Source: Proteromonas lacertae (taxonomy: Eukaryota; Sar; Bigyra; Opalinata; Proteromonadidae). Taken from it: DNA of 64,000 nt. The DNA is taken from positions 18,179 through 82,178 of the forward strand of contig NGBS01000618.1 in NCBI GenBank assembly GCA_002245135.1, written 5' to 3'. Position numbers and translations under genes: made by a program. Of the stretch, positions 24,601 to 55,664 are shown in pieces (within the stretch, counting starts at the first letter, position 1; every line of letters starts with the position of its first letter). The notes under the pieces were generated by a model that ran no database searches, was not told the origin of the DNA, and saw only the letters and a list, made by a program, of their open reading frames with translations.

Positions 24601-26278
24601 CTTCAATTATTGCTAAAGAGATTGAATCTACCAGAATATAATGATGTAGTATCAACAAATAATATAAATATTGACAAATTGATATTTGATTTGTATATGA
24701 ATTATTCATCACAAGCAGGGAGAGAACTGATTGAACATGATAGATCGTATATATATATAATATTTTATGTGAATAGTAAATTATGTGATTTGAATGATTC
24801 TAACAGTGTAGGATTAGTATCAATTCACAATATTGTGGATCAAATATCAATTGAATGGTCCAAAGATGCTGAAAATTACAGAAATATCTGTTTAGACAGA
24901 TTTTTATCTTATGACTATGAAACACTAATAGCTAATAAAGGAAACAACATATTAGAATTATCATACTATGAGAATATGAAAATAATAAATGAGAATATTT
25001 GTTATGCTGTTTTATATATTTTATCTCATGATAGAGATAATAGTGATATCTTATATGAAAATGGTAAAATATTAGCAAGAAAAGCTTATAATGAGAATAT
25101 ATGTTATAAAGAGAGAGTAATTGCTTTACAGTGTCTGTTTTTACTCTGTCCTTCAAATGTGATTGAGATATTAATGGACAAACCAATTAATGAAGTTCAT
25201 ATGTATTGGCAGTACTGTAAGTATGATTATTATTATTAATTGTTATTATTGTTTATAGTTATTTATCAGTGTTAGAAGAAAAGAAATTGACATATTCATA
25301 TGATGAAATAACATCAATTGATAAAGAATATCTAATAAGTGGAATATTGAGAGATTATCCAAATGATGCTGAATTGGTAAATATGGTAACACAAATGCTA
25401 TTAGATTTCAACATTAAGAATATATCTTTTTATAATTGTTGTTAATCATTCTTCTAATCTGATTTCTTTAATTAAGAGTTTACCTTAAAATATGGATTAA
25501 TGTGTTTAAGAAATTAGTCAATTTGAGACAATATCGTTTGATAATAAAGATAATGATAGAATTAACCAAAACAGAATTAATAGAATCATATTCTCCTTTA
25601 TCTGATTTGTGGAATCAAATATTACAGAAACTAATACAAGAAATATGTAAACAATACCAAAACAGTATGAATAACATAGAGTATAAGTGTGAAGCAAATC
25701 ATTTACTTAATAAGATAATAATCATCTGTGAATCAAATCCATTCCTATTGAAAATGAATATATTGTCAATGATAAAAACACTCGTTAATATTGGAGATGA
25801 TTTTATCCCAATTGTTGTTAGATTATCATTGTTAATCCCTTCAATTAAAGGAAGAATAGATGTATTAAATCAATTTGTGAATAAAGGATATTATATAGAA
25901 GTATTATATGGATTAAGTAATGGAGTAAGTGAGATATCTTTAACAGAGAATTCAATAGAGTTGAATTTGATTCATAAGATATATGATGAAATAAATAAGC
26001 AGAAACTGTTCTATATGATTCAACCAACTCAGTTTTATTCAGATTTTGTAGATTATTTGATATTCACTAATTCAATAGATTTTATCATTGAAAATTTTGT
26101 ATGTAATGGAAATATTGATGATGCAATTGGATTATTGAATAATTATAATGAGAAGAATGAAAATAAAGAAATGTCAATGACAAATAACAAGAATACAACA
26201 AGACTTCAACTATTGAAAGAGTTTATAACCGAATCTCAACTTTTAAGTAATAATCTATTATCTTTATTACCTTTCTAA
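18856..26278 (+). CDS. KNTC1: Kinetochore-associated protein KNTC1 / Rough deal (ROD)
   Basis: Many short exons on the plus strand, separated by AT-rich introns. The N-terminal part reads as a beta-propeller (LIGDKSGCLTIIDKNGR; DIYTLLYMYEW, as in ROD). Then come helical repeats with ROD-like stretches at 20668-20931 (IWRRHLKEFENC...WLKHEVLPH), 24100-24240 (DPWPILKTVLTPQTFDDLM...SLDDIY) and 25110-25210 (ERVIALQCLFLLCPSNVIE). The last long exon (25502-26278) ends in SLLPF. ROD with ZW10 and Zwilch forms the RZZ complex, which recruits dynein and Mad1/Mad2 to kinetochores. The exact start and several 5' splice sites are unresolved: frames from the ATG at 18856 and from the exon near 18990 do not join simply. 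Bases from 24933 onward are duplicated in the right palindrome arm. A (TA)n tract near 21637-21674 lies in an intron. Confidence 0.82.
21637..21674. repeat. (TA)n microsatellite in a KNTC1 intron
   Basis: About 19 uninterrupted TA units lie just after a GT donor and well before the next coding exon at ~21700. Shorter TA runs mark many other introns of this gene. Confidence 0.9.
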
Positions 26279-26387
26279 CTTGTAATCGATATTTGATATT
26301 GTTATTTTTGTTGTTTATAAAGCTTATTCAAAATAGAAATGAAAAACGCTCATATTTTCATTAATTGTCCAAATCACTTTTTGAAAT

Positions 26388-27245
26388 GAATATAGACGAT
26401 GATGAAGTATATGATGAAATAGAGGATAAATATGAGACAATTTTGAGTAGAATTAATGAATTAATAGATTAGGAAACGAAGAGAAAGACATAGAAGAGTC
26501 AATTGAAAGTTACAAGAGTTTTTGCAAAGTTTACAAAGAATATAACGTTATTTGGTATAATATATATCAAAATTGATATTGTATAGGTTATATTTATCAA
26601 AATACAGAATAATCATGTTGTGTATAAAATTAAGTAGAGTATATCCTATATAATCTTTTAATGTTACATAGAAAGATGAATGTTTAGTATACTTGAGAGA
26701 ATTGATCAATGATTACACGAGAATGTTCTATAGAAGTGAATTTGAAGATAAATTAGTTGAAATACTGAGATTATTATCATCAATTCATAGAGCTGAAACT
26801 ATAAGAAATGATTTTATGTTACTGGAAGATGTATTAGAGAAAATTAGTTTTGATTTTGTATAAATATATATATATATATATATTATAGAGTGTTCCTTGG
26901 TCATTATATATCTCAATGATAGACTATTATATCTCAAATAATGATAGTGATTCAATATACAGAATACGCACAAAGATGAATGGATTATTTGAAACTAGAA
27001 AAGATGAATTGAATTCCAAAACAAAGATGATGATAATCAATACATACATAAGAATATTAGAGTATTTTGGTCGTCCAAAGGAAGGAATATTATTGTTTAG
27101 ACCACTTCATCTACAACCACCAATAGAACCACTATACTTTCAAAATACACTAGAACCTCTATCACCATCTTCATATGAGAGTTTGAATAATATGATAGAA
27201 GAAGATGATGATGAAGTAGAAGATGATGAAGAAGAATGGATATAA
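26388..27245 (+). CDS. Small acidic helical protein, unknown function (left copy)
   Basis: The ATG at 26388 starts an acidic peptide (MNIDDDEVYDEIEDKYETIL). Further coding pieces follow at ~26480-26555, ~26672-26860 and 26889-27245, separated by AT-rich introns with GT...AG ends, including one with a TA run near 26860. Near 26455-26475 the frame must shift, and no clean intron explains this, so the first exon may be misread or damaged. The long last exon is helical (pentatricopeptide/TPR-like spacing is possible but not shown) and ends in an Asp/Glu-rich tail, EEDDDEVEDDEEEWI. I do not recognise the family. It lies ~110 bp downstream of KNTC1 on the same strand. The second copy is at 53352-54209. 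Confidence 0.55.
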
Positions 27246-28697
27246 GAGTGGTTGTGAATATCTAAAACAATTATCATTATAATTATAAAATGATTGTTTC
27301 TTTATTATTGAAAAAATTGCATCAACTGTTTTTTAATTGCACAAACTCATTTCTCTTGTATATATCATCTGATTCACCACTTATCTATTATAACAAATAT
27401 TACTTTCATATCTATTTTTTAAGTAATTTACTCAATTTTTGATCAAATGATAAATGTTTACAACAAATATCAATATATAGATCTAATTCCCTCGCAACTA
27501 TTGTAATTATTGAGTTATTGATGTTGCTATAAAATAGACCTTGGCTTGTATAGCCACGATAAGAATTTTCTAAGTGCTTTTTGTGACTTTAAATAGATTT
27601 TTCTCAATAACTATAAGGAATAAAATAGTAAAAATTTGTCAAACGATGTATCATGCTTTGAGCTTTATCATAGTATACTTAGTTTCATAATTACCTCTTT
27701 CATGTCATTCGTCTGTTTTTGATATGTTACATTATAATTGAATAACAACAAACATAAATAATAACATTGATATATTTTTATTTGATTTATATCATTTATT
27801 AGCTTTAAAAACTATAATACATCTCGAACTGTACTGATTTTAAATACCACGTATTTGGCTAATAGGGACTGAAATATGTTAATAAATTTTATACGTAATC
27901 ACTACCTATATACGATATGTATAGTATAGGAGTATTCCAGAAAGGACGATATTAATTTTGACTAGGTAATTGAATGTAATCATGATATTATGTGATTTTT
28001 GATGTATGTGTGTGTAGTTAAATAGAGCCATATTGCTATTTTTGACTAATTGCTTCTAATTAAGAAGATATCAAAATATTTTTCATATCAGCACTATATG
28101 CTGTATTATTATGTTAATCTGAATAGCTAAACCCCATAAATACACTGTATAACATATATTATAGATAAATTACTGAATCAATATTCTTCTCCCCTGGAAT
28201 TCTGTTGCTATTCTAATAAAATAACTATTAAAATATAAAAATAACTATAATACTTATATAATCATCTATAATATCTATAAACATAATAACAAATTAAAAC
28301 ATACCAGTATAGCTTAACATGCAAGTTGCTGATATTCTCTGCCTTTCATCGATTAGTACAATGCTAAACAGCTATAATAAAATATAATATACTAAAATAG
28401 TTATACTTTTTCTAATTATAAAATATAATATATAAACTGGATGTTTCTACTGTTCTTCACCTGGAATTCTAATGCAATTCATCTAATGATAATATATAAA
28501 TAAGAATATACTTTGAATTATTGAAATTATATTCAATACTCTACTAACAATATATAAATAAGAATAATATACTAATATACTTATAAGAATATATTCATTT
28601 ACCTATTATAAAATAATAAAAATAATACTGGATATACTAACTCAATAATACCACTATATACAAATCCAAATGTTATTTTCATATAATGGAGTAAAAA
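27246..28697. other. Non-coding AT-rich stretch in the left arm
   Basis: No open frame of note on either strand. The same sequence occurs inverted at about 51901-53351 in the right arm, where it is equally empty. Confidence 0.5.
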
Positions 28698-29580
28698 CTA
28701 ATAGAGTAAATAATAGATCAAATACTTCTTAAATATAGGATTATCATTAACTTGATTCAATAAATACAATGATTGAACTGTTTCTAAATCAATTAATCCA
28801 AGAATAACATCAGCTAAATACTCTTGAATTGGAGATGGTTTAGAAGCTTCCAAGTTTTTTAATTACTATGAATAAATAAAATAAAATCAGAATATTCGTA
28901 TCATCATACTTAATTTTCGTGTTCTCATCGAATGAATTGTTGAACTTACGATATATGTCTTTTCTACAGTTACTGTTTTGGCAACACCTGAAATCACACC
29001 AATTGTTGAATAAACATACCTAATAATTCATCCTAACAAAAATAATTATAAAAAATATACTAATTCATCTTAGCTTCTTCATCATCAGACTTTACTATTT
29101 TATATTATAATAACAATTATACTTATTTGTATTTGTTGGATTAATCGTTGATGGTAAACTTGGTTTATATTCTAATTATCCTAGTCTGACACCTAATTTA
29201 GATAATAAAATATATGATAATTGCTATAATACCAATATGCTAAATTAACAGAAATAGTTGAATTTCCTACTACTTATAACTCGAATAATATGTTGTACAT
29301 CAAAAGTGCCAAATGTATTAACAAGGTAAAAGTTTGTATATGTAGTTGATGAGCTTTAGTAAGACAGACTAAATCAAAGATGATAGTTGTATTTTTTTCT
29401 TCAAATGTTCTTAATTCTTCCCTTAGTTATAATATCTTTGATTTTTAATTATTAGAACTATTATCTAATTAACATATATGATAATATTATACTTCCTTCA
29501 ACAATTATAATCAATTCCTGCTCTTTGTATTGTTTTGTATATTTCTTATCTGTAATAACAACACTTGTGCTGCCATTGTT
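28698..29580 (-). pseudogene. Remnant of an unidentified spliced gene (left copy)
   Basis: The minus strand carries several short coding-like stretches that are exactly those on the plus strand at 51018-51900 of the right arm: one starting NNGSTSVVITDKKYTK, one with TFEEKNTTIIFDLVCL, and a final piece with SPIQEYLADVILGLIDLETV ending in a stop. They could be joined partly by short introns, but a frame change near TFGTFDVQHI is not explained by splicing. I do not recognise the protein. The composition looks like real past coding sequence rather than chance. Confidence 0.35.
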
Positions 29581-30550
29581 ATATTCTATATAAAATTATA
29601 TACTATATATACTCATAACACAACAGAAGAAAAAAGAATTAAAGTGTATTTCAAAAATTATATTCGTTTCAGTTTTTAAGTTTTGAGAAATTAAATGAAT
29701 GTATAAGTTTAGATTATTTTTATTATAGTGAATAGATAATAATATATAGTGTACATGTCAATTTGATGTTTGATTCACATAAAGATGCTTAAAATAAATA
29801 TCCAAGTAAAAATGTGAAGTGAAAGGCGGTTAAGAGAAAGTAAATATGCAAATTAATCTATTGGCTATATAAGTTATTGTCTAAAAATCAAATTTCAATA
29901 GATTCAAGGAATTATTTTATATGTGATTGTATTTATACTAATGTTACAACAAATTACTATCATGTGAGTAGAATGAGTTTAGTGAGTAATTTTTCGACTT
30001 GGTTATGCAAATTGTGAATATAGGAAGTGAAGAGAAGAGAGAATATGATAAACCTAAGAGAATATTACAATCTTCCACATGTTTATACTATTAATTCAGT
30101 AGTAAATGTTCGAATTGGATTTGTTTCTTATTTAGGTTGGATATTACAACAACTAAGATAACACCGAATATGTTATATGCAAAAGTATCATTAGCTAATG
30201 ATTATTTGAATTAGTGTTATTATAAACTGATATACAGGTAAAATAAAAGCTTCCTATACATTTGATGTATGGTTTTTATAATAGAAACAGATAATGGTGA
30301 CTAATACTCATCATCCATTATAAATGTAATAATAGATACCTAAGCCACTGACTATTTGTCAGGATGACTTAAGAATACTCTGTAGCAATATAACGGTTAT
30401 TTCCCCCTTTGGCTTATTACTATTGCTATTACTATTACTATTATTATTATTATTATATAGATATATATTATATTACTTTATAATGAAAAAATAAAAAAGA
30501 ATAAAAAAGAATAAAAAAGAATAAAAGAGAATTAATATTTATATATAAAT
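29581..30550. other. Non-coding stretch upstream of the transposase, with simple repeats
   Basis: No gene is seen. Just before the transposase start there is a trinucleotide-like run (30420-30460, TTA/TTAC units) and a tandem repeat of about four 11-bp units (AAAAAAGAATA type) at 30484-30530. Terminal inverted repeats of the transposon would be expected somewhere here, but I could not identify them. Confidence 0.45.
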
Positions 30551-33500
30551 ATGAAATTTTTAGACATTCTAGTTCAATTATACCCTAATATAATACATGA
30601 TGATGTTTATTATAGTAATTCTTACAACGTGTTGGTAGTTGATGATACTATTTATAATTTCAATGAAAATACTCAAAAATATTATGAAGTAGTTTTTTAT
30701 GAAGAATTCACAAATATTGATGAATTAATTAATATATACAATAATAAGAAAGTAAATATATATTTTCAAACAGACAAACCATCCATCATCATTACATTGT
30801 TAAGATTTAATGTTATTATAATTTATAAAAATCAATTCATATCTACAAAAGTGGCTCAATATTACTTAAGACAAAATTTAGATAATAAAAATGAAGATTT
30901 TCTTTTCTATAATAATGAAAAAGATGTAATAATGGATAAAGTTATTGATAACTTTCTATTTCTTGCTTTTATATATTTCAGTAAAGTAATTACTACAAAT
31001 GTAGAAAGAAATATACCATTGTTTTATAAGTTAATTGATTGTTATAAAAGAATTAATAATAAATACAGAGATTTTGGAAAGTGTGTAAAATATGTATTTG
31101 ATGTAATAGGAGAGTTGGATAGAGAAATTATAAAGAAAGCAAATGAAGAGGTTATAATAGAGAAATTATATTATCCTCAATTCTATAAAAGTTTTAATGT
31201 AATAAAGGGAAAAACAATCAATTATAATAAAAAAATGGTAAGTAGTATTAATGATATAGATTATATAAATAATAATTATTGTGTATTAGATTCTATCAAT
31301 CCATTTTTATTCAAAAGAAATTATACTAGTAAAAAATCAGTGGAAGATATGGAATATTTGGTTGGTAAATCAATTAGAATTGATTTTCCTTATTATTTAA
31401 CAAATGTAATAATTGATAGAATATTGTCATATAATTATACAATACAAAGTAAAGGATATGTTACAAGATCAAGTAGAAACAATAAATCAGCTGTATTAGA
31501 TTTTTTGAAAATTAAAGAAACAATTAATGAAGAATATAGAAAAGGTAAGTACATTATTCAATACTCTGTAGAAGATAAAGTTCATTATATTTCACTAGAT
31601 GAAATAAATATTGATAGTGTAATGAATAGAGGAAAAAGAAAAAGAAGAGAAAAAGTAATTAATAGAGAAGATACACACAATAATAAAAGAATAGATGTTG
31701 ATAATAATAATATAAGTAACGAATATGATGATATTGCAGCAGATGGTTATGAAGATGAAACAGATAGTTCTGACAATGATGATAATACTAATGATGAAGA
31801 TTATAATATTCTTAATAATATAACAAAGAATGACATTTCTAATAGAAATAATAATGTATATGATGAAGATAGTAATGATGGAGATGAAATTGAATTAGAA
31901 ATAATGACTGATGAAGAGGAAATAGCTGTAGATGAAAATGGAAGAGATGGTAATGATGATGGATATGTTGGTTTTCGTGATGATGATGATGATAACGATG
32001 AAATATTAGATGATTCAGTATTATATGATGATAGAGATAGTGAATATGAAGGTAGAAATGGCGATAGTGATAAAGAAAAATTATCGGTATACTTATACTA
32101 TTTCTTTCTGAAGAATTCTATATCTCAAGATAAAGTAAATAAGTTATTGAAACAATTAAACTCAATAGAAACAATAAAGAATTTACATTTAAAAGAAACA
32201 TTCAAGCCTTTACGAGATTATGTTGAAAAGGTAGTAGGATTAAAAAAACCAGACAAAAATAATTATATTACAATTGAAAGTGGGATTAGAAAAATGTTGA
32301 AGAAGAAAATAATTAAATTTGATGATTCAATTAATAATAATAAAAGCAAATATAAGAGCATTTATAGTAGTAACAATTACAAAAACATTTATAATTTAGA
32401 TGTAAATAGAGAAAATTTCAGACATATTTTGTTACAGATCAGTAGTGATGGTGTTGAAATAAATCACTTTAGCTTTATTAAAAAAAGTGTAAATGTTTTA
32501 TCATACAAAGTATTAAATAATTATAATGACAGTAAATTACTTCAAGTAATAAATATAAGTGATAATGATGATAATATAAATGATATTACAAAATTAGTAG
32601 TTGATGAATTAAACAATATATTTATTAAAGGTATAGAGGTAGAAGGTGTCAAATATAATATATATTTGGTAAGTATAGTAGGTGATATGATTGGAATAAT
32701 AAAACTAATGAAATTACATAATTTCGTAGGTAGTAATAGTTTCTGTAGAACTTGCACAGCAACTACCAAAATCATTACTATTAATAAAATAATCAATAAT
32801 GTTGTAGTTGAAGAAAAATTAAAAATAAAAGACTCAATGAGAGCTTATAAGAAGAAGTATCAGAATTTATATCCTCAATTTTATCAATATAAAGAAAAAA
32901 GACTATTCCATATATTTAATAACTATTCATATAGTAGATTTTTAAGAACTTTCAATAAAAAGCAACACAAAGAAGATATACAAAGCAGTTTTCGATCATT
33001 AATTTACTATGACATTAACTTAATAACTTTTGATGCGATGCATACAATAAACAACTGTTTTAATAGGTTTTATGATCAAATGAAAGACAATATAATTAAT
33101 TTATACAACAATAATCAATTTAAAATGGTTTATACTCAATCTTCATCATTTTACAATCTTCAGCTAAATAAATTTACAAAGTATAACATGATAGAACAAA
33201 ACCACTTCTTTTTATATATCCTACCTCTAATGATAATAAAATTAAGAAAAGAGAGTGAAATAATGATTTATGATGGATTATTCAACATCATAGATATAGT
33301 AAATAATGCATTAAACTATCAATTCAGTAATATCACTTTAAATAAGATGGAAGACATTTTAGTAACTAATTTAAATATTATGGAATTATATATATTCTTC
33401 ACTCCATCCTGTCATGATTTGGTTCACTTAATTAAATATTTGTCTAATATAGGCCCGCTTATTCACCAGAGTACAAGTGTTTATGAAAGAAGTTATAAAC

Positions 33501-33943
33501 AAATAAAAAACATCTCTATAAGTAATAATCATCAAAAAACATCAATCTTAAATACAATATCATCAATTAACCAAATATATGTTTATAATTATAATGAAAA
33601 AATGAAGATCAATAGAAAATATAATCTAGTTATTAATGATTCTAGATCAATATCTGACCTTTTTAAAACATTTCCATCTATTCATTATTATTCAATTATA
33701 TCCTTCCATAGTGGAGAAAATATTCATTTTGGTATTATAAAGTCAATAAATAATTCGCAAATCCATTATAATGAAATAAATGTTACAAAAATTACATTAA
33801 CAATATACAAATATATAAGCATTACTACATTGGATAAAATTGTTGATATAAATGATATTATTATATTTAATAATATATTCAAATTCAGTGATGTAGAATA
33901 TTATATCTTTATTAGTGAAATAACATTCTATAAAGATTTGTAG
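30551..33943 (+). CDS. tnp2/CACTA-Plavaka-like transposase, intact copy
   Basis: One open frame of 1130 aa. Residues ~365-520 are a lysine/arginine patch followed by a long acidic Asp/Glu/Asn linker. The C-terminal half matches the layout of tnp2-type (CACTA/Plavaka) DDE transposases: SSDGVEINHFS; GDMIG with D712; a CRTC pair (C732, C735) as in the usual Cys motif; FDAMH with D828; and GPLIH followed by YERSYKQIK with E979 and a nearby NNHQ. D712, D828 and E979 are the likely catalytic triad (inference from family pattern). The family cuts and pastes DNA as transposon-borne enzymes. It is very divergent and shows no obvious introns. Its mirror copy at 46656-50047 is frameshifted, so this is the only potentially active copy in the window. 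Element ends were not found. Confidence 0.68.
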   Translation: MKFLDILVQLYPNIIHDDVYYSNSYNVLVVDDTIYNFNENTQKYYEVVFYEEFTNIDELINIYNNKKVNIYFQTDKPSIIITLLRFNVIIIYKNQFISTKVAQYYLRQNLDNKNEDFLFYNNEKDVIMDKVIDNFLFLAFIYFSKVITTNVERNIPLFYKLIDCYKRINNKYRDFGKCVKYVFDVIGELDREIIKKANEEVIIEKLYYPQFYKSFNVIKGKTINYNKKMVSSINDIDYINNNYCVLDSINPFLFKRNYTSKKSVEDMEYLVGKSIRIDFPYYLTNVIIDRILSYNYTIQSKGYVTRSSRNNKSAVLDFLKIKETINEEYRKGKYIIQYSVEDKVHYISLDEINIDSVMNRGKRKRREKVINREDTHNNKRIDVDNNNISNEYDDIAADGYEDETDSSDNDDNTNDEDYNILNNITKNDISNRNNNVYDEDSNDGDEIELEIMTDEEEIAVDENGRDGNDDGYVGFRDDDDDNDEILDDSVLYDDRDSEYEGRNGDSDKEKLSVYLYYFFLKNSISQDKVNKLLKQLNSIETIKNLHLKETFKPLRDYVEKVVGLKKPDKNNYITIESGIRKMLKKKIIKFDDSINNNKSKYKSIYSSNNYKNIYNLDVNRENFRHILLQISSDGVEINHFSFIKKSVNVLSYKVLNNYNDSKLLQVINISDNDDNINDITKLVVDELNNIFIKGIEVEGVKYNIYLVSIVGDMIGIIKLMKLHNFVGSNSFCRTCTATTKIITINKIINNVVVEEKLKIKDSMRAYKKKYQNLYPQFYQYKEKRLFHIFNNYSYSRFLRTFNKKQHKEDIQSSFRSLIYYDINLITFDAMHTINNCFNRFYDQMKDNIINLYNNNQFKMVYTQSSSFYNLQLNKFTKYNMIEQNHFFLYILPLMIIKLRKESEIMIYDGLFNIIDIVNNALNYQFSNITLNKMEDILVTNLNIMELYIFFTPSCHDLVHLIKYLSNIGPLIHQSTSVYERSYKQIKNISISNNHQKTSILNTISSINQIYVYNYNEKMKINRKYNLVINDSRSISDLFKTFPSIHYYSIISFHSGENIHFGIIKSINNSQIHYNEINVTKITLTIYKYISITTLDKIVDINDIIIFNNIFKFSDVEYYIFISEITFYKDL

Positions 33944-34023
33944 TTTAATCAATTAATATTCTAAATGTTTAATAATATTTGTTTGTTAAATATATGATGA
34001 AATCAAATACATTTGTTGTATAA

Positions 34024-34497
34024 CGTTGGGAGATAAATGGATTTTAGATTGCGTTGAAGTTATAAACGTAATCTAAATCCCATAAATATTACAAAAATAC
34101 ACTTATATTTTATTGTTCTGGTTACTCAGTTATATATGTATCACTGCTTGTTTATACTTAATATTAAACATCTGTAGCAATAGTAGAAAACGAAATTAAG
34201 GCTAAAAATGATTAGAATTAGATAACTTTAATTTCTTTATACTTAATATTGAATTTGAAATTATAGGCTTGAAAGAGGTTTGAACTCAATTTTTATTTTT
34301 CCTTTTTTAATTACCTTAACATCTTTTTTTTCACATCTTATTCATCTCAGGTGATGAATTTTTGTCTCCAGAAGCTTTAAATAAAATATATCGCAAATGT
34401 AGCTTATATACCAAAATAAGATTATATTTGAATATAACTCACTACCTAGCCCTCTACTGTCATATTATTTTCTATAAAACCCATTTATCTCCCAACG
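34024..34497. mobile_element. Short non-autonomous inverted-repeat element (left copy, uninterrupted)
   Basis: 474 bp bounded by a 17-bp perfect inverted repeat, CGTTGGGAGATAAATGG at 34024-34040 and its complement at 34481-34497. Just inside the left end is a strong hairpin (34039-34080; GGATTT-AGATT pairing with AATCTAAATCC). It carries no coding sequence. No convincing target duplication is seen. The right-arm copy is split by the foldback element. Confidence 0.6.
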
Positions 34498-35677
34498 GCA
34501 TAAATCTCCTAATGGCTTATAACAACATCGCATAATTCAATCAATTAAAATACTTCTCTTTACTGTCTTCTTCTCTTCTTGTCTTTTTCTAATACCTCTT
34601 CTTATTCCTCAACATTATCTAATCTATTTATTCCTAAATTATCATCTTTGAACTTCTTTATATCACTTTCGTATATTAACAATGTAATTATTTCATCATT
34701 TTCATCACACATTTCTTCTTTATAATTGTTTCTTAATCATCAATGTATAAATCATTTACTTTTTCATTAAATGTATATACACATGATACTATGAATATTA
34801 TTCTATACAATTAGCAAATATATGCATGTTTATATACAAAAATAGTTAAAATAACTAATTACAATCAAAATGATAATATTTTACACAAATAATAAAATTA
34901 CATTAAAAGATGACAATTACATGTATTTTTACTTCTTTTACTTTTTTTATTTTCTCATTTTTCTCTTCATATACTAATGAATATGTATTAATTTCTCTAT
35001 CATGAATCAAATAAATAAATATTCAATCTGAAGTTATATGTAATATAGGTTGCTAATCACTTTTTCTACTATATTACTTTGAAAGTGCATATAACGCAAT
35101 ATAAATTTTATAATTATACAATTAAACATTAGATATAACTATATAACAACTAATTAGAATAGATCCTCTAAATTTGAAATGTCATTTATATACAAGGAGA
35201 TATTTTCTTAGCTTTACTCACATAGATTTACAATTTATATATTATCTTTAAGAATAATTCGAGAATTCTAATAAGTCTTCGGTACAAAGTGATTGCCCAG
35301 TGTTTGATAGTTTACTAATAGCAAGCGAATTTAGTTATGAAATATTACTTAATTTAGAAATATTGTTGGTTCTGTCGAGTTGGAATTTCTATTAAAAGTC
35401 TATCTAAAAAGTATTAAAATTTGATATTTTTAATTTATAGCTAAATACAAACTTCAACATGTAATTAATAGATGTGTAGAGTATTGGCTTTTTATTCAAA
35501 CTTAAAGACAATTAAAAAACGAAAAGAAAATGGTGTTAAAGTCAAAATTCAACGAGCCCAGCTTGGGTCAAGTATATAAGTCCTATTTGCAAAATAGATT
35601 AGAATTCTTATAGTGGCTTGAGTTATTTTTCTTTTTTTAATTGTAAGTGAGCCATCCATTATTTTTTAAAATTGATA
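34498..35677. other. Largely non-coding, with a small degraded ORF
   Basis: The minus strand at 34712-34602 encodes a 36-residue acidic peptide (MCDENDEIITLLIYESDIKK...) ending in a stop, followed in the same frame by a Lys/Arg-rich piece to ~34560. The copy in the right arm (43061-43212) is identical. It looks like a gene fragment. Nothing else is recognisable in this 1.2 kb. Confidence 0.35.
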
Positions 35678-37086: not shown

Positions 37087-37281
37087 AACTGATTAATTAT
37101 ATTGTTTTTATTAATATATGTTTGTATAAATCGGTTATGACCTCTAGTAAGTATTAGTTGACCTCTTTTGTAGTATGTGTTTCTAATCATAAAATCATGT
37201 ATAAACATATTAAGCTATATATATCATTCAACAAAAGATAAATTAACAGACGGTTGATTATTAACATTTGATTATTATCTC

Positions 37282-43522: not shown

Positions 43523-44300
43523 GGGGTATTTTTTTTTGAACAGCTGCTCAAATTTTGAACAGGCTGTTTCTAAAAGCGCCATGAATCTCATATTGAAATT
43601 TGTCTGACTATTATTAATTATTTTAGCTTTTCTGAATTGTGTGTGGTATTTAGACATCATCAATGTTAATCATTAGAAACAATTAGATCGTTCTAGGTAT
43701 CAGTCTATTATAAATAATATCTGTACACTGGACCTCCAGTTTTTTCTATTCTAATCTCTCTATTTAGAGAGAATAATAAAAAACAAATAAAATTGACGCA
43801 AGCCAGGTTTGAACATTTTTTCAAATTTTTATATTTTGAGCACCTGCCTCCTATAGGAAGTAAGGGCGCAATATAATAATATATTATGTGTATATGATGA
43901 TTTTATCAAACATTCATTTAATAATATTAATCAAATTTTCATAATCTAGCTATTTCCTTAATTAGTAACAATTGATTCCTAGCAAAATAAAATAATACTA
44001 GCTAATAACGCTTGTCTATCAGTCTATATATTATAAGACCTATTTGTACTATTATTAAACATATTTGTAAATATTGCGAATTATAACAAACAAAACACTA
44101 ACAAATGTATATTTATTTGTTACTCAGTGATAATTTAACAATTTTCTTAAAAACAAATCATTAAAGTAAATTTTGGCAATCTTACATCTATTCGAGTAAG
44201 TCAACATATTAGCCATTGGATAAGTTAAGAATTTAAAATCATCTACTTCTCGTTTTATAATCATGAATTTTGACAATTTGCTTTCTAAAGCATTTCTTAT
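43523..44300 (+). repeat. Left terminal inverted repeat of the foldback element
   Basis: It pairs base for base with 45563-46340 (coordinates sum to 89863). It begins near a palindromic GAACAGCTGCTC motif and ends at the start of the NALESKLSK coding-like segment. Confidence 0.88.
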
Positions 44301-44360
44301 ACCTACAACGAAGATATCTCTATTGAATTGTAATTGATATACTTCTACTAATCTTTTCAT
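44124..44360 (-). pseudogene. Coding-like segment at the inner edge of the foldback repeat
   Basis: A 78-residue frame whose last 57 residues (RNALESKLSKFMIIKREV...KLLNYH) are repeated exactly at 45563-45739 in the opposite repeat; only the first ~21 residues are unique to this side. I do not recognise it. It could be the C-terminus of a lost element protein. Confidence 0.3.
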
Positions 44361-45562
44361 ATATTATAAAGCTACTTCTTTTATATTCAATTTACCTCTC
44401 ATGATTTAGCTTTCAATATCTCAACTTTTACAACCATTCTTTAAAAATTTTCAGGTGTAAGAAGATCTTTATCATTTGTAATTGTAACCATTTTTATCAT
44501 TTGTAAGTATAAATATCATAAATTACTTCAATTGGTGGAATTCCATTTTCATTTAACTTACTTATTTAGTAATAATCTAATGTCATAGTTTTTTCACCTT
44601 CAAACAATTCAATTAACACATCGGGTTGTTAATTACTGTATGTACTAAATACTTGAGTATTATTAACTAAAATGTTAATAATTCTTTTAATCTACACAAT
44701 TATTACACCACTAACTTTTATAACAACATTTCATTTTATAACAACATTTCATCCAGTTTCTCATCTCTATCAACACTATTGTAAAAGTAACAGATTGTAT
44801 TCCTGCAGTAAAAGCTAAATCTATTTAAATTGAATTATATGCACATATTCTATGCATAAGGTTTCTAACATCATTTTTTGCTTTTGTCTTATTATAAACA
44901 TTCTAATTTGTATTGTTTAATACTCATAATATCTTCAAAATTCAAAAATTGGTTCAAACTTTAGCTTGAAAATCCCATTTATTTTTGTGTTTTTTGGATG
45001 ATATATGTGGATTATGAAATATTTTTTGTATATAATAAATTTATTTACACATCTAGAACAAAATGACAACAATAATTATTTTTAAAAGTAAAGTAGAAGA
45101 AAAAATGGTAGTAGAATATCCACAGATCCCCCATTGCTTGAACAATTTGAGAAAGCTGGATATAAAGTAGAAGCAGATATATATATAATCCAAATATTAT
45201 AATGGTTATTGAAATCACAGTTGATGTTAGTGATTATTTAAAAGAATATTAATATCTTATATTCTGGAGGATGTTTTTCAATTATTTTCAAGTATATATT
45301 ATCCTAAAAGTTGATTATGATTGTCTATTATGTAATTAAATTCTTAATTAGAGATGTTTTTATAAAACAACATTAGAGGATAAGAATGTTATATTTTGTA
45401 AACAGATAGAATAGTAGAAGAATATTGATTGTGTAAATAAACACATAAGCATATATGTCAATTTCAATCAAGTAGTTAAAACATAATATGGCAAATGAAA
45501 AGAAATAGAATCTATTGATAACAAATATAATTCAATTATAGTTAAATGTACATCTATTGTTA

Positions 45563-46340
45563 ATAAGAAATGCTTTAGAAAGCAAATTATCAAAATTCAT
45601 GATTATAAAACGAGAAGTAGATGATTTTAAATTCTTAACTTATCCAATGGCTAATATGTTGACTTACTCGAATAGATGTAAGATTGCCAAAATTTACTTT
45701 AATGATTTGTTTTTAAGAAAATTGTTAAATTATCACTGAGTAACAAATAAATATACATTTGTTAGTGTTTTGTTTGTTATAATTCGCAATATTTACAAAT
45801 ATGTTTAATAATAGTACAAATAGGTCTTATAATATATAGACTGATAGACAAGCGTTATTAGCTAGTATTATTTTATTTTGCTAGGAATCAATTGTTACTA
45901 ATTAAGGAAATAGCTAGATTATGAAAATTTGATTAATATTATTAAATGAATGTTTGATAAAATCATCATATACACATAATATATTATTATATTGCGCCCT
46001 TACTTCCTATAGGAGGCAGGTGCTCAAAATATAAAAATTTGAAAAAATGTTCAAACCTGGCTTGCGTCAATTTTATTTGTTTTTTATTATTCTCTCTAAA
46101 TAGAGAGATTAGAATAGAAAAAACTGGAGGTCCAGTGTACAGATATTATATATAATAGACTGATACCTAGAACGATCTAATTGTTTCTAATGATTAACAT
46201 TGATGATGTCTAAATACCACACACAATTCAGAAAAGCTAAAATAATTAATAATAGTCAGACAAATTTCAATATGAGATTCATGGCGCTTTTAGAAACAGC
46301 CTGTTCAAAATTTGAGCAGCTGTTCAAAATAGAACTTTCC
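45563..46340 (-). repeat. Right terminal inverted repeat of the foldback element
   Basis: Reverse complement of 43523-44300, including the 57-residue coding-like segment at its inner end (45563-45739 on the plus strand). A second short frame at 46200-46397 runs off the repeat into the flank and is probably fortuitous. Confidence 0.88.
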
Positions 46341-46655
46341 TCAAATTCAATATTAAGTATAAAGAAATTAAAGTTATCTAATTCTAATCATTTTTAGCCT
46401 TAATTTCGTTTTCTACTATTGCTACAGATGTTTAATATTAAGTATAAACAAGCAGTGATACATATATAACTGAGTAACCAGAACAATAAAATATAAGTGT
46501 ATTTTTGTAATATTTATGGGATTTAGATTACGTTTATAACTTCAACGCAATCTAAAATCCATTTATCTCCCAACGTTATACAACAAATGTATTTGATTTC
46601 ATCATATATTTAACAAACAAATATTATTAAACATTTAGAATATTAATTGATTAAA

Positions 46656-49600
46656 CTACAAATCTTTATAGAATGTTATTTCACTAATAAAGATATAATA
46701 TTCTACATCACTGAATTTGAATATATTATTAAATATAATAATATCATTTATATCAACAATTTTATCCAATGTAGTAATGCTTATATATTTGTATATTGTT
46801 AATGTAATTTTTGTAACATTTATTTCATTATAATGGATTTGCGAATTATTTATTGACTTTATAATACCAAAATGAATATTTTCTCCACTATGGAAGGATA
46901 TAATTGAATAATAATGAATAGATGGAAATGTTTTAAAAAGGTCAGATATTGATCTAGAATCATTAATAACTAGATTATATTTTCTATTGATCTTCATTTT
47001 TTCATTATAATTATAAACATATATTTGGTTAATTGATGATATTGTATTTAAGATTGATGTTTTTTGATGATTATTACTTATAGAGATGTTTTTTATTTGT
47101 TTATAACTTCTTTCATAAACACTTGTACTCTGGTGAATAAGCGGGCCTATATTAGACAAATATTTAATTAAGTGAACCAAATCATGACAGGATGGAGTGA
47201 AGAATATATATAATTCCATAATATTTAAATTAGTTACTAAAATGTCTTCCATCTTATTTAAAGTGATATTACTGAATTGATAGTTTAATGCATTATTTAC
47301 TATATCTATGATGTTGAATAATCCATCATAAATCATTATTTCACTCTCTTTTCTTAATTTTATTATCATTAGAGGTAGGATATATAAAAAGAAGTGGTTT
47401 TGTTCTATCATGTTATACTTTGTAAATTTATTTAGCTGAAGATTGTAAAATGATGAAGATTGAGTATAAACCATTTTAAATTGATTATTGTTGTATAAAT
47501 TAATTATATTGTCTTTCATTTGATCATAAAACCTATTAAAACAGTTGTTTATTGTATGCATCGCATCAAAAGTTATTAAGTTAATGTCATAGTAAATTAA
47601 TGATCGAAAACTGCTTTGTATATCTTCTTTGTGTTGCTTTTTATTGAAAGTTCTTAAAAATCTACTATATGAATAGTTATTAAATATATGGAATAGTCTT
47701 TTTTCTTTATATTGATAAAATTGAGGATATAAATTCTGATACTTCTTCTTATAAGCTCTCATTGAGTCTTTTATTTTTAATTTTCTTCAACTACAACATT
47801 ATTGATTATTTTATTAATAGTAATGATTTTGGTAGTTGCTGTGCAAGTTCTACAGAAACTATTACTACCTACGAAATTATGTAATTTCATTAGTTTTATT
47901 ATTCCAATCATATCACCTACTATACTTACCAAATATATATTATATTTGACACCTTCTACCTCTATACCTTTAATAAATATATTGTTTAATTCATCAACTA
48001 CTAATTTTGTAATATCATTTATATTATCATCATTATCACTTATATTTATTACTTGAAGTAATTTACTGTCATTATAATTATTTAATACTTTGTATGATAA
48101 AACATTTACACTTTTTTTAATAAAGCTAAAGTGATTTATTTCAACACCATCACTACTGATCTGTAACAAAATATGTCTGAAATTTTCTCTATTTACATCT
48201 AAATTATAAATGTTTTTGTAATTGTTACTACTATAAATGCTCTTATATTTGCTTTTATTATTATTAATTGAATCATCAAATTTAATTATTTTCTTCTTCA
48301 ACATTTTTCTAATCCCACTTTCAATTGTAATATAATTATTTTTGTCTGGTTTTTTTAATCCTACTACCTTTTCAACATAATCTCGTAAAGGCTTGAATGT
48401 TTCTTTTAAATGTAAATTCTTTATTGTTTCTATTGAGTTTAATTGTTTCAATAACTTATTTACTTTATCTTGAGATATAGAATTCTTCAGAAAGAAATAG
48501 TATAAGTATACCGATAATTTTTCTTTATCACTATCGCCATTTCTACCTTCATATTCACTATCTCTATCATCATATAATACTGAATCATCTAATATTTCAT
48601 CGTTATCATCATCATCATCACGAAAACCAACATATCCATCATCATTACCATCTCTTCCATTTTCATCTACAGCTATTTCCTCTTCATCAGTCATTATTTC
48701 TAATTCAATTTCATCTCCATCATTACTATCTTCATCATATACATTATTATTTCTATTAGAAATGTCATTCTTTGTTATATTATTAAGAATATTATAATCT
48801 TCATCATTAGTATTATCATCATTGTCAGAACTATCTGTTTCATCTTCATAACCATCTGCTGCAATATCATCATATTCGTTACTTATATTATTATTATCAA
48901 CATCTATTCTTTTATTATTGTGTGTATCTTCTCTATTAATTACTTTTTCTCTTCTTTTTCTTTTTCCTCTATTCATTACACTATCAATATTTATTTCATC
49001 TAGTGAAATATAATGAACTTTATCTTCTACAGAGTATTGAATAATGTACTTACCTTTTCTATATTCTTCATTAATTGTTTCTTTAATTTTCAAAAAATCT
49101 AATACAGCTGATTTATTGTTTCTACTTGATCTTGTAACATATCCTTTACTTTGTATTGTATAATTATATGACAATATTCTATCAATTATTACATTTGTTA
49201 AATAATAAGGAAAATCAATTCTAATTGATTTACCAACCAAATATTCCATATCTTCCACTGATTTTTTACTAGTATAATTTCTTTTGAATAAAAATGGATT
49301 GATAGAATCTAATACACAATAATTATTATTTATATAATCTATATCATTAATACTACTTACCATTTTTTTATTATAATTGATTGTTTTTCCCTTTATTACA
49401 TTAAAACTTTTATAGAATTGAGGATAATATAATTTCTCTATTATAACCTCTTCATTTGCTTTCTTTATAATTTCTCTATCCAACTCTCCTATTACATCAA
49501 ATACATATTTTACACACTTTCCAAAATCTCTGTATTTATTATTAATTCTTTTATAACAATCAATTAACTTATAAAACAATGGTATATTTCTTTCTACATT

Positions 49601-50047
49601 TGTAGTAATTACTTTACTGAAATATATAAAAGCAAGAAATAGAAAGTTATCAATAACTTTATCCATTATTACATCTTTTTCATTATTATAGAAAAGAAAA
49701 TCTTCATTTTTATTATCTAAATTTTGTCTTAAGTAATATTGAGCCACTTTTGTAGATATGAATTGATTTTTATAAATTATAATAACATTAAATCTTAACA
49801 ATGTAATGATGATGGATGGTTTGTCTGTTTGAAAATATATATTTACTTTCTTATTATTGTATATATTAATTAATTCATCAATATTTGTGAATTCTTCATA
49901 AAAAACTACTTCATAATATTTTTGAGTATTTTCATTGAAATTATAAATAGTATCATCAACTACCAACACGTTGTAAGAATTACTATAATAAACATCATCA
50001 TGTATTATATTAGGGTATAATTGAACTAGAATGTCTAAAAATTTCAT
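46656..50047 (-). pseudogene. tnp2/CACTA-Plavaka-like transposase, frameshifted copy
   Basis: Mirror copy of 30551-33943. The frame from 50047 stops at 47777, just after the CRTC motif, because an A5 run in the left copy is A4 here; the remaining 368 residues continue in another frame (47762-46656) with the DAMH and YERSYKQ motifs intact. Loss of one base in a homopolymer could be a real mutation or a consensus error. If real, the product lacks two of the three probable catalytic residues. Apart from the indel, the two translations match wherever compared. Confidence 0.8.
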
Positions 50048-51017
50048 ATTTATATATAAATATTAATTCTCTTTTATTCTTTTTTATTCTTTTTTATTCT
50101 TTTTTATTTTTTCATTATAAAGTAATATAATATATATCTATATAATAATAATAATAATAGTAATAGTAATAGCAATAGTAATAAGCCAAAGGGGGAAATA
50201 ACCGTTATATTGCTACAGAGTATTCTTAAGTCATCCTGACAAATAGTCAGTGGCTTAGGTATCTATTATTACATTTATAATGGATGATGAGTATTAGTCA
50301 CCATTATCTGTTTCTATTATAAAAACCATACATCAAATGTATAGGAAGCTTTTATTTTACCTGTATATCAGTTTATAATAACACTAATTCAAATAATCAT
50401 TAGCTAATGATACTTTTGCATATAACATATTCGGTGTTATCTTAGTTGTTGTAATATCCAACCTAAATAAGAAACAAATCCAATTCGAACATTTACTACT
50501 GAATTAATAGTATAAACATGTGGAAGATTGTAATATTCTCTTAGGTTTATCATATTCTCTCTTCTCTTCACTTCCTATATTCACAATTTGCATAACCAAG
50601 TCGAAAAATTACTCACTAAACTCATTCTACTCACATGATAGTAATTTGTTGTAACATTAGTATAAATACAATCACATATAAAATAATTCCTTGAATCTAT
50701 TGAAATTTGATTTTTAGACAATAACTTATATAGCCAATAGATTAATTTGCATATTTACTTTCTCTTAACCGCCTTTCACTTCACATTTTTACTTGGATAT
50801 TTATTTTAAGCATCTTTATGTGAATCAAACATCAAATTGACATGTACACTATATATTATTATCTATTCACTATAATAAAAATAATCTAAACTTATACATT
50901 CATTTAATTTCTCAAAACTTAAAAACTGAAACGAATATAATTTTTGAAATACACTTTAATTCTTTTTTCTTCTGTTGTGTTATGAGTATATATAGTATAT
51001 AATTTTATATAGAATAT
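50048..51017. other. Non-coding stretch (right copy)
   Basis: Inverted copy of 29581-30550, with the same tandem 11-bp repeat and trinucleotide run near 50050-50180. No gene is seen. Confidence 0.5.
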
Positions 51018-51900
51018 AACAATGGCAGCACAAGTGTTGTTATTACAGATAAGAAATATACAAAACAATACAAAGAGCAGGAATTGATTATAATTGTTGA
51101 AGGAAGTATAATATTATCATATATGTTAATTAGATAATAGTTCTAATAATTAAAAATCAAAGATATTATAACTAAGGGAAGAATTAAGAACATTTGAAGA
51201 AAAAAATACAACTATCATCTTTGATTTAGTCTGTCTTACTAAAGCTCATCAACTACATATACAAACTTTTACCTTGTTAATACATTTGGCACTTTTGATG
51301 TACAACATATTATTCGAGTTATAAGTAGTAGGAAATTCAACTATTTCTGTTAATTTAGCATATTGGTATTATAGCAATTATCATATATTTTATTATCTAA
51401 ATTAGGTGTCAGACTAGGATAATTAGAATATAAACCAAGTTTACCATCAACGATTAATCCAACAAATACAAATAAGTATAATTGTTATTATAATATAAAA
51501 TAGTAAAGTCTGATGATGAAGAAGCTAAGATGAATTAGTATATTTTTTATAATTATTTTTGTTAGGATGAATTATTAGGTATGTTTATTCAACAATTGGT
51601 GTGATTTCAGGTGTTGCCAAAACAGTAACTGTAGAAAAGACATATATCGTAAGTTCAACAATTCATTCGATGAGAACACGAAAATTAAGTATGATGATAC
51701 GAATATTCTGATTTTATTTTATTTATTCATAGTAATTAAAAAACTTGGAAGCTTCTAAACCATCTCCAATTCAAGAGTATTTAGCTGATGTTATTCTTGG
51801 ATTAATTGATTTAGAAACAGTTCAATCATTGTATTTATTGAATCAAGTTAATGATAATCCTATATTTAAGAAGTATTTGATCTATTATTTACTCTATTAG
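51018..51900 (+). pseudogene. Remnant of an unidentified spliced gene (right copy)
   Basis: Plus-strand coding-like stretches: 51018-51113 (NNGSTSVVITDKKYTK...), ~51177-51290 (REELRTFEEKNTTIIFDL...), a piece with ISGVAKTVTVEKTY near 51605-51650, and a terminal exon 51745-51900 (LEASKPSPIQEYLADVIL...) ending in TAG. The first two can be joined across an intron in phase. A one-frame jump near 51280 is unexplained, so the gene is probably dead or my exon reading is incomplete. The family is not recognised. Confidence 0.35.
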
Positions 51901-53351
51901 TTTTTACTCCATTATATGAAAATAACATTTGGATTTGTATATAGTGGTATTATTGAGTTAGTATATCCAGTATTATTTTTATTATTTTATAATAGGTAAA
52001 TGAATATATTCTTATAAGTATATTAGTATATTATTCTTATTTATATATTGTTAGTAGAGTATTGAATATAATTTCAATAATTCAAAGTATATTCTTATTT
52101 ATATATTATCATTAGATGAATTGCATTAGAATTCCAGGTGAAGAACAGTAGAAACATCCAGTTTATATATTATATTTTATAATTAGAAAAAGTATAACTA
52201 TTTTAGTATATTATATTTTATTATAGCTGTTTAGCATTGTACTAATCGATGAAAGGCAGAGAATATCAGCAACTTGCATGTTAAGCTATACTGGTATGTT
52301 TTAATTTGTTATTATGTTTATAGATATTATAGATGATTATATAAGTATTATAGTTATTTTTATATTTTAATAGTTATTTTATTAGAATAGCAACAGAATT
52401 CCAGGGGAGAAGAATATTGATTCAGTAATTTATCTATAATATATGTTATACAGTGTATTTATGGGGTTTAGCTATTCAGATTAACATAATAATACAGCAT
52501 ATAGTGCTGATATGAAAAATATTTTGATATCTTCTTAATTAGAAGCAATTAGTCAAAAATAGCAATATGGCTCTATTTAACTACACACACATACATCAAA
52601 AATCACATAATATCATGATTACATTCAATTACCTAGTCAAAATTAATATCGTCCTTTCTGGAATACTCCTATACTATACATATCGTATATAGGTAGTGAT
52701 TACGTATAAAATTTATTAACATATTTCAGTCCCTATTAGCCAAATACGTGGTATTTAAAATCAGTACAGTTCGAGATGTATTATAGTTTTTAAAGCTAAT
52801 AAATGATATAAATCAAATAAAATATATCAATGTTATTATTTATGTTTGTTGTTATTCAATTATAATGTAACATATCAAAAACAGACGAATGACATGAAAG
52901 AGGTAATTATGAAACTAAGTATACTATGATAAAGCTCAAAGCATGATACATCGTTTGACAAATTTTTACTATTTTATTCCTTATAGTTATTGAGAAAAAT
53001 CTATTTAAAGTCACAAAAAGCACTTAGAAAATTCTTATCGTGGCTATACAAGCCAAGGTCTATTTTATAGCAACATCAATAACTCAATAATTACAATAGT
53101 TGCGAGGGAATTAGATCTATATATTGATATTTGTTGTAAACATTTATCATTTGATCAAAAATTGAGTAAATTACTTAAAAAATAGATATGAAAGTAATAT
53201 TTGTTATAATAGATAAGTGGTGAATCAGATGATATATACAAGAGAAATGAGTTTGTGCAATTAAAAAACAGTTGATGCAATTTTTTCAATAATAAAGAAA
53301 CAATCATTTTATAATTATAATGATAATTGTTTTAGATATTCACAACCACTC
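51901..53351. other. Non-coding AT-rich stretch (right copy)
   Basis: Inverted copy of 27246-28697; no gene or element boundary is visible. Confidence 0.5.
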
Positions 53352-54209
53352 TTATATCCATTCTTCTTCATCATCTTCTACTTCATCATCATCTTCTTCT
53401 ATCATATTATTCAAACTCTCATATGAAGATGGTGATAGAGGTTCTAGTGTATTTTGAAAGTATAGTGGTTCTATTGGTGGTTGTAGATGAAGTGGTCTAA
53501 ACAATAATATTCCTTCCTTTGGACGACCAAAATACTCTAATATTCTTATGTATGTATTGATTATCATCATCTTTGTTTTGGAATTCAATTCATCTTTTCT
53601 AGTTTCAAATAATCCATTCATCTTTGTGCGTATTCTGTATATTGAATCACTATCATTATTTGAGATATAATAGTCTATCATTGAGATATATAATGACCAA
53701 GGAACACTCTATAATATATATATATATATATATTTATACAAAATCAAAACTAATTTTCTCTAATACATCTTCCAGTAACATAAAATCATTTCTTATAGTT
53801 TCAGCTCTATGAATTGATGATAATAATCTCAGTATTTCAACTAATTTATCTTCAAATTCACTTCTATAGAACATTCTCGTGTAATCATTGATCAATTCTC
53901 TCAAGTATACTAAACATTCATCTTTCTATGTAACATTAAAAGATTATATAGGATATACTCTACTTAATTTTATACACAACATGATTATTCTGTATTTTGA
54001 TAAATATAACCTATACAATATCAATTTTGATATATATTATACCAAATAACGTTATATTCTTTGTAAACTTTGCAAAAACTCTTGTAACTTTCAATTGACT
54101 CTTCTATGTCTTTCTCTTCGTTTCCTAATCTATTAATTCATTAATTCTACTCAAAATTGTCTCATATTTATCCTCTATTTCATCATATACTTCATCATCG
54201 TCTATATTC
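53352..54209 (-). CDS. Small acidic helical protein, unknown function (right copy)
   Basis: Mirror of 26388-27245 with the same exon pieces, the same TA-rich intron and the same unexplained frame change near the first exon end (54120-54145). That both copies share the frame change argues against a random error in one of them. The product is an acidic, helical protein with an Asp/Glu-rich C-terminal tail; no family is recognised. Confidence 0.5.
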
Positions 54210-54318
54210 ATTTCAAAAAGTGATTTGGACAATTAATGAAAATATGAGCGTTTTTCATTTCTATTTTGAATAAGCTTTATAAACAACAAAAATAACAATA
54301 TCAAATATCGATTACAAG

Positions 54319-55664
54319 TTAGAAAGGTAATAAAGATAATAGATTATTACTTAAAAGTTGAGATTCGGTTATAAACTCTTTCAATAGTTGAAGTCTTGTT
54401 GTATTCTTGTTATTTGTCATTGACATTTCTTTATTTTCATTCTTCTCATTATAATTATTCAATAATCCAATTGCATCATCAATATTTCCATTACATACAA
54501 AATTTTCAATGATAAAATCTATTGAATTAGTGAATATCAAATAATCTACAAAATCTGAATAAAACTGAGTTGGTTGAATCATATAGAACAGTTTCTGCTT
54601 ATTTATTTCATCATATATCTTATGAATCAAATTCAACTCTATTGAATTCTCTGTTAAAGATATCTCACTTACTCCATTACTTAATCCATATAATACTTCT
54701 ATATAATATCCTTTATTCACAAATTGATTTAATACATCTATTCTTCCTTTAATTGAAGGGATTAACAATGATAATCTAACAACAATTGGGATAAAATCAT
54801 CTCCAATATTAACGAGTGTTTTTATCATTGACAATATATTCATTTTCAATAGGAATGGATTTGATTCACAGATGATTATTATCTTATTAAGTAAATGATT
54901 TGCTTCACACTTATACTCTATGTTATTCATACTGTTTTGGTATTGTTTACATATTTCTTGTATTAGTTTCTGTAATATTTGATTCCACAAATCAGATAAA
55001 GGAGAATATGATTCTATTAATTCTGTTTTGGTTAATTCTATCATTATCTTTATTATCAAACGATATTGTCTCAAATTGACTAATTTCTTAAACACATTAA
55101 TCCATATTTTAAGGTAAACTCTTAATTAAAGAAATCAGATTAGAAGAATGATTAACAACAATTATAAAAAGATATATTCTTAATGTTGAAATCTAATAGC
55201 ATTTGTGTTACCATATTTACCAATTCAGCATCATTTGGATAATCTCTCAATATTCCACTTATTAGATATTCTTTATCAATTGATGTTATTTCATCATATG
55301 AATATGTCAATTTCTTTTCTTCTAACACTGATAAATAACTATAAACAATAATAACAATTAATAATAATAATCATACTTACAGTACTGCCAATACATATGA
55401 ACTTCATTAATTGGTTTGTCCATTAATATCTCAATCACATTTGAAGGACAGAGTAAAAACAGACACTGTAAAGCAATTACTCTCTCTTTATAACATATAT
55501 TCTCATTATAAGCTTTTCTTGCTAATATTTTACCATTTTCATATAAGATATCACTATTATCTCTATCATGAGATAAAATATATAAAACAGCATAACAAAT
55601 ATTCTCATTTATTATTTTCATATTCTCATAGTATGATAATTCTAATATGTTATTCCCTTTATTA
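54319..55664 (-). pseudogene. KNTC1: Truncated 3' copy of KNTC1
   Basis: Contains the last exons of KNTC1 (the 258-aa final exon at 55095-54319, and the ERVIALQCLFLLCPSNVIE exon at ~55621-55358). The copy breaks off at 55664 in the middle of a coding exon, with Maverick-like DNA beyond. Without the propeller and most of the helical repeats it cannot make ROD. Whether it is a dead duplicate or an allele disrupted by the element depends on how the palindrome arose. Confidence 0.85.

Follow-up and report, generated by a model that had tools for sequence, protein, structure and literature searches.

A probable fold-back inverted duplication underlies a 31-kb palindrome at a KNTC1-like locus of Proteromonas lacertae

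Introduction

Near-perfect palindromes of great length are in many cases unstable, or are suspected to be products of misassembly, and the locus described here raises the question of whether such a palindrome is genuine and, if it is, why its two arms are so nearly alike. The window analysed is a stretch of 64,000 nucleotides of Proteromonas lacertae DNA (bases 18179-82178 of contig NGBS01000618.1, here C1016, from a 50.2-Mb assembly of 1181 contigs), in which a 31-kb palindrome begins inside a gene resembling KNTC1 (Rod). The initial annotation, made from the letters alone, had offered two explanations: a recent inverted duplication that was later hit by two transposons, or two haplotypes falsely joined head to head. 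In this work the window was compared with itself by BLAST and its arms were aligned, and the central junction of the palindrome was found, to the nucleotide, in other contigs which, wherever they cover its site, lack a transposon present in both arms of C1016. We favour, with a probability of roughly 0.65, a genuine fold-back inverted duplication that was followed by the entry of this transposon and its copying from arm to arm, and later by two younger insertions which were not copied.

Results

The inverted repeat spans positions 24933-55664 (30,732 bp) of the window, which has a GC content of 25%. The three main pieces of the self-comparison showed identities of 99.96%, 100% and, at the tip, 93%, and with bit scores of 17,198, 5,613 and 730 the inverted repeat is not due to chance. 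The near-perfect palindrome of the initial annotation was thus borne out, and its two length jumps between the arms came out at exactly 2713 and 2826 bp on re-measurement: the first is a hAT transposon and the second a foldback-like element, each with a perfect 8-bp target site duplication (TSD; Table 1). The remainder of the arms had also been called near identical, and apart from the two insertions we counted only two substitutions and two 1-bp indels in 12,559 aligned bases. The substitutions are at 24942 and 24945, the 10th and 13th bases from the outer end, and together with the single nucleotide polymorphism (SNP) at 25113 discussed below they all fall on third codon positions of the reading frame. 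The indels are at 27775 and 32814; the latter breaks the long open reading frame (ORF) in the right copy of an 8-kb transposon and could be a sequencing error. This transposon of 8,061 bp, common to both arms, goes beyond the earlier description, as does the occurrence of the outer part of the arm and of the right flank in multiple copies elsewhere. The gene that breaks off at the outer end of the right arm continues across that of the left arm.

Table 1. Features of the palindrome and its surroundings (positions in the window)
Feature	Position	Strand	Remarks
Left arm	24933-40206	+	15,274 bp; outer end runs on into the KNTC1-like gene
Right arm	40280-55664	-	15,385 bp; inverted copy of the left arm
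Spacer	40207-40279	.	73 nt; GG/AA mismatch, 5-bp stem TGATA (40209-40213)/TATCA (40273-40277), 59-nt loop
Dispersed-repeat fragment	40202-40511	+	310 bp; matches an inner portion of a dispersed repeat family at 96-97% identity
8061-bp DNA transposon, left copy	27555-35615	+	Ends CAC[G/T]ATAAGAATT; 2-bp duplication GC; ORF 30536-33943
8061-bp DNA transposon, right copy	42158-53042	-	At the mirrored base; split by the foldback-like element
hAT transposon	37290-39994	+	Left arm only; 2705 bp; TSD ATCTAAAC at 37282-37289/39995-40002
Foldback-like element	43523-46340	.	Right arm only; 2818 bp; TSD TCAAATTC; inside the right copy of the 8-kb transposon
KNTC1 (Rod)-like gene	19314-27245	+	Predicted from listed ORFs, the last of which ends at 27245
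KNTC1-like 3' part, mirrored copy	53352-55664	-	Cut off at the outer right end
Second arm ORF (RPN7-like)	36078-36722	+	Weak match to RPN7 (E 0.011, below cut-off); mirror copy at 41051-41695
Right-arm flank	55665-56134	-	5' region of a nucleoside triphosphatase (NTPase)-like gene; multicopy, joined to the arm at the same junction
Large dispersed repeat	56135-64000	+	Starts directly after the flank; cut by the contig end; tentatively Maverick/Polinton-like

When a 33-base pattern across the central junction was searched with up to two mismatches, four sites were obtained in the 50-Mb assembly, in C1016, C870, C1096 and C1097, and the reversed control of the pattern gave none. Apart from its orientation and one indel of a single base in C870, the spacer is identical in the four contigs. 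With respect to the NTPase-like flank, the loop of C870 is oriented opposite to those of C1096 and C1097. The hAT transposon is absent from both arms of C870, C1096 and C1097. Read outwards from the centre, both arms of C870 and both arms of C1097 pass through the RPN7-like region and enter the KNTC1-like 3' end with no 8061-bp transposon in between; one arm of C1096 does the same, and its other arm stops short of the site. An exact 16-base pattern beside the transposon site (CCTTGGCTTGTATAGC) was found at seven sites, all of them in these four contigs. Two are filled, with the transposon at the same base in both arms of C1016, and five are empty (two of two arms in C870 and in C1097, and one in C1096). 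The empty site of C870 is clean, with TATAGC directly followed by TTGAG as against TATAGC-[8061]-GCTTGAG, and the breakpoints in C1096 and C1097 match it. Since C1016 has the transposon in each of its arms, and C870 and C1097 have a clean empty site and no transposon in either arm, its insertion would be later than the palindrome; the precise loss of the element from both arms elsewhere is a less likely alternative. The junction thus appears, from these sequences, to be older than the 8-kb transposon. Of the recent inverted duplication first proposed, the kind of event and the two later insertions therefore stand, while recency by itself does not account for the alikeness of the arms.

The shared junction also bears on whether the palindrome was put together by the assembler. 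A head-to-head join of two haplotypes or repeat copies would explain why the arms differ by two insertions, as alleles would, and an apparent allelic contig (C1093) does exist; moreover, palindromes in the 2013 assembly of Adineta vaga had no counterpart in A. ricciae, for which its authors named a real difference or an artefact as possible causes (PMC5916493). A single exact junction shared by sequences with and without the transposon cannot, however, be the product of such a join, and its recurrence, to the nucleotide, in contigs that differ in transposon and SNP state makes a join of this kind unlikely. The duplicated target of the hAT transposon ends just 204 bp from the spacer in C1016, so that any read through the centre would carry the junction and the transposon together. 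In addition, the sequences flanking the two arms on the outside resemble separate loci and not alleles, and the arms differ less from each other than C1016 does from C1093. We consequently hold the second of the original explanations, the false joining of two haplotypes, to be very improbable.

An inverted chimera made during whole-genome amplification or library preparation was also considered; a short loop with little homology, as seen here, is typical of amplification chimeras. In amplified Arabidopsis PacBio libraries palindromes occurred in 40-50% of reads, and a gorilla Y assembly contained numerous inverted duplications (PMC6218980). In the present assembly, contig C1109 (27,149 bp) is palindromic nearly from end to end: bases 1-13696 fold on 14836-26603 around a 1139-bp spacer, with no unique flank. 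Between 604 and 26000 its two arms show a single substitution, 15 small indels and a 1934-bp insertion confined to one of them, and in each arm lies a diverged relative of the 8-kb transposon. A single template cannot, however, place a hAT transposon in one arm of C1016 and a foldback-like element in the other, and an accident of the library or the assembly would have had to strike the same nucleotides twice, that is, two independent chimeras would have picked the same junction. Given that the junction is shared, that each arm has its own insertion and that the outer flanks differ, an amplification chimera is highly unlikely for C1016, and even the two kinds of artefact combined amount to a small chance. 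Another artefact, a missing adapter or a read of template and complement, was rejected, as the same spacer occurs in four contigs and is 73 nt long in the window.

The centre of the palindrome indicates how the junction may have formed. The fold-back junction is the inner edge of a 310-bp fragment of a dispersed repeat family which is present in at least 13 contigs. All 11 of the copies aligned have TGATAA/TTATC followed by an A, and they extend in both directions beyond the junction point, so that the version in the window would be a break within the repeat joined to its own inverted self. The fragment was also considered as a stand-alone 310-bp miniature inverted-repeat transposable element, which was rejected since the 11 aligned copies continue into common flanks on both sides. 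The spacer taken whole is not palindromic, and its stem is a short inverted repeat of the parent sequence; as would be expected of a fold-back event, a secondary rearrangement is found at the end of the copied arm, which is joined to the NTPase-like flank. No unfolded copy of the junction was found in the assembly by an exact pattern search and by DNA searches that score the best candidates and skip common words.

If the transposon postdates the palindrome and sits in both arms, it was either copied from arm to arm or the palindrome was re-made from a filled arm. It should be noted that the arms differ by substitution only in the outermost 13 bases, the point at which copying would have no further homology to follow. 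Two further markers, the SNPs at 25113 and 25244, were typed in 13 copies (the fetched stretch of C1094 begins too late for typing). The combination G,T was found in seven of them (the left and right arms of C1016, C1178, C1179, C897 and two units of C1180), A,A in five (both arms of C1097, C870, C1096 and C136) and A,T in C1093 alone. In C1016 and C1097, the two palindromes for which each arm could be typed, the left and right arms have the same bases at these SNPs; arms are therefore concordant where copies differ, as would be expected of gene conversion, though C870 and C1097 may be one palindrome. Compared with the window, one arm of C1097 has 11 indels and the other 7, of which a single position is shared; the two arms were thus not derived from a single consensus, and indels outnumber mismatches in a way that suggests a long-read origin of the sequence.

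The divergence of alleles provides a scale for the alikeness of the arms. A search with the unique DNA bordering the palindrome on its left (24401-24932) gave only C1016 and C1093, and C1093, apparently the other allele, differs from 19341-24932 by 11 mismatches and 9 gaps over 5592 bases before departing at 27104 into another structure, where a 4.1-kb insertion interrupts the last listed ORF of the KNTC1-like gene. Were the arms alleles, about 25 differences would be expected in 12,559 bases at the C1093 rate; two were seen, for which the Poisson P(<=2) of 6e-9 is only a guide because eight of the 11 C1093 SNPs lie within 720 bases. With the junction apparently older than the transposon common to both arms, the near-identity of the arms would reflect later homogenisation or re-copying and not recency alone.

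Conversion may not have been the process. A lineage which already bore the transposon could have suffered a break at the centre, after which the hairpin-capped end would have been replicated and recombination in the KNTC1-like repeat would have re-joined the NTPase-like flank. Such a re-making of the palindrome would bring about the agreement of transposon and SNPs across the whole arm in one step, and the multicopy KNTC1-like 3' part would be usable as a target; it needs a break, a refolding and a second exchange, which the sequence does not demand over conversion. We consider it rather unlikely, and prefer gene conversion between the arms of an inherited fold-back duplication.

The hAT transposon has ends CTGGGTT/AACCCAG, and its ORF 38152-39738 contains DUF659 and the hAT dimerisation domain (PF05699, 3.8e-7, above cut-off), so that the 8-bp TSD, the terminal inverted repeats and the dimerisation domain of a hAT element are all present. 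The foldback-like element has a TSD and long inner inverted repeats (43534-44300/45563-46329; 767 bp, 99.7% identity); its outermost bases are imperfectly inverted, and a 28-base pattern across its left junction has one site in the assembly. The 8061-bp transposon ends in CACTATAAG on one side and CACGATAAG on the other, and its ends begin with CACTA/CACGA, inviting comparison with CACTA/CMC elements. A further copy is present at C573:376647-384707. The 1135-aa product of its ORF 30536-33943 matched nothing in Pfam at E<=0.01, and a search of 5.8 billion proteins gave no homologue at E<=0.001.

The assignment of the interrupted gene to KNTC1 is based on ORF 19314-19820, which matches KNTC1_N (Pfam PF24506, E 2e-6, 27.7 bits, the cut-off being 27.1); the ORF 24490-25239 of the same gene spans the outer left end of the palindrome. 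Relatives of the RPN7-like ORF region, with 86-88% identity, are found in C574, C1065 and C1064. The NTPase-like gene (ORF L034:4760-6244) has weak AAA-type matches below cut-off. Its flank is joined to the arm in the right arm of C1016 and in all eight other copies aligned; the junction is not in the gene at the left arm of C1016 or in C1093. Tandem units of about 10.5 kb (in C1179, position 1419 recurs at 11932) likewise contain the flank and the end of the KNTC1-like gene, together with the 4.1-kb insertion, located at 27104, and a short inverted stretch (27413-27108). Contigs that combine the KNTC1-like 3' part with the NTPase-like gene are C1179, C1180, C1094, C897, C1178, C1096 and C1093. 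The large repeat beyond the flank has an integrase-core match (rve, E 0.0056) below cut-off, its resemblance to Maverick/Polinton elements being otherwise by eye; its polymerase-like ORFs had no Pfam or PHROG match, one of them also having no convincing PDB match, and a homologue search with the integrase-like ORF 59398-60558 found a single relative (60% identity). The contig ends at 82,178 bp, which is the right end of the window. At C136:7609-9665 a 1.6-kb piece of flank and KNTC1-like sequence lies between inverted copies of the end of the large repeat, with inverted arms of 2.4 kb.

Three other observations concern DNA outside the palindrome. To the left of the window, C1016:8179-14709 is a tandem array with a period of about 2.5 kb that holds 282-bp subrepeats. 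A 169-bp inverted repeat (1201-1369/2136-2304) has 96% identity. The IFT80 gene at 15053-17404, on the minus strand, indicates that the organism probably has intraflagellar transport; its relatives are 96% and 81% identical, then 48% and below, among the 120 matches listed.

Discussion

The palindrome of C1016 would have begun with a break inside the dispersed-repeat fragment beside the RPN7-like ORF, leaving a 3' strand that may have folded back on the 5-bp stem with its 59-nt loop. The folded strand would then have copied its own chromosome back through the RPN7-like ORF and the KNTC1-like 3' part, and at 24933 the copy was presumably joined to the upstream region of the NTPase-like gene; the direction of copying and the order of the outer rearrangements are likewise proposals. 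In one lineage the 8-kb transposon would later have inserted into a single arm, and gene conversion or re-folding at the centre would have carried it to the second. Later still, the hAT transposon may have inserted into the left arm and the foldback-like element into the right arm, neither of which was copied across.

Several points weigh against this sequence of events. The evidence consists of assembled contigs, which leaves some room for an error of amplification or assembly, and C1109 may show that this assembly produces or retains palindromes. C870, C1096 and C1097 are short (10.5-13.8 kb), the latter two have many indels, and all three may represent one other palindrome or allele. Five of the seven G,T copies are tandem units from which the right arm of C1016 could have taken its state, so that SNP agreement alone is no proof of arm-to-arm copying in C1016, and the 8-kb transposon is the only strong marker of homogenisation. 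Finally, no unrearranged copy of the NTPase-like flank was found from which microhomology at the outer join could be read.

Large palindromes of Tetrahymena are reportedly driven by short inverted repeats, as Yasuda and Yao are said to have described in 1991. The Tetrahymena palindrome is developmentally programmed ribosomal DNA (rDNA). Like it, the palindrome described here would derive from a short inverted repeat at a free end; unlike it, no Rfam match was found in the window and the eight loci searched, and an rDNA minichromosome was rejected on this basis. Telomere repeats of at least three units (TTAGGG and TTTAGGG on both strands, TTGGGG on one) were absent from the window and the contigs fetched.

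Close parallels are found in yeast. Fold-back inversions have been described there with stems down to 4 bp, with a class having loops of at least 15 nt and with secondary rearrangements in all cases (PMC7467729), and a break near an imperfect 11-bp inverted repeat drove inverted duplications (PMC10622511). The locus shares with them the short central stem and loop, the inverted copying of one flank and the further rearrangement at the end of the copied arm, and its 59-nt loop falls in the large-loop class; it differs in being natural and apparently inherited. In the W palindromes of willow, arm-to-arm conversion was inferred from arms agreeing where species differ (PMC7023750). The agreement of arms while copies differ, together with single-arm insertions, is common to our palindrome, to willow and to the human Y cited there; what sets it apart from those sex-chromosome palindromes are the arms of about 15 kb, the inferred spread of a whole 8-kb transposon and the small number of markers. 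Large inverted duplications have also been seen in the assemblies of other non-model eukaryotes, namely Folsomia candida (PMC5490193) and A. vaga, with a debate on artefacts for the latter (PMC5916493). The palindromes of F. candida have a wide range of synonymous divergence (Ks), and its authors saw no concerted evolution (PMC5490193); here, by contrast, the arms are nearly identical and the junction is common to other contigs.

The rearrangement belongs to a known class, and it is its history that is unusually readable. One exact junction in two backgrounds constitutes a test, free of reads, within a single assembly, and a natural fold-back inversion has apparently been inherited and not lost. 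It is possible, and we put it forward tentatively, that a kinetochore-gene locus of P. lacertae, that of the KNTC1/Rod-like gene, carries a stable, self-copying palindrome in which copying between arms doubled the 8-kb transposon, so that insertions would end up in both arms or be erased. If this is true, the two insertions not yet copied would be a natural clock of arm-to-arm copying. The copied, older insertions and the uncopied, younger ones place the events in sequence, and with their help conversion between arms would be measurable in relatives of this organism.

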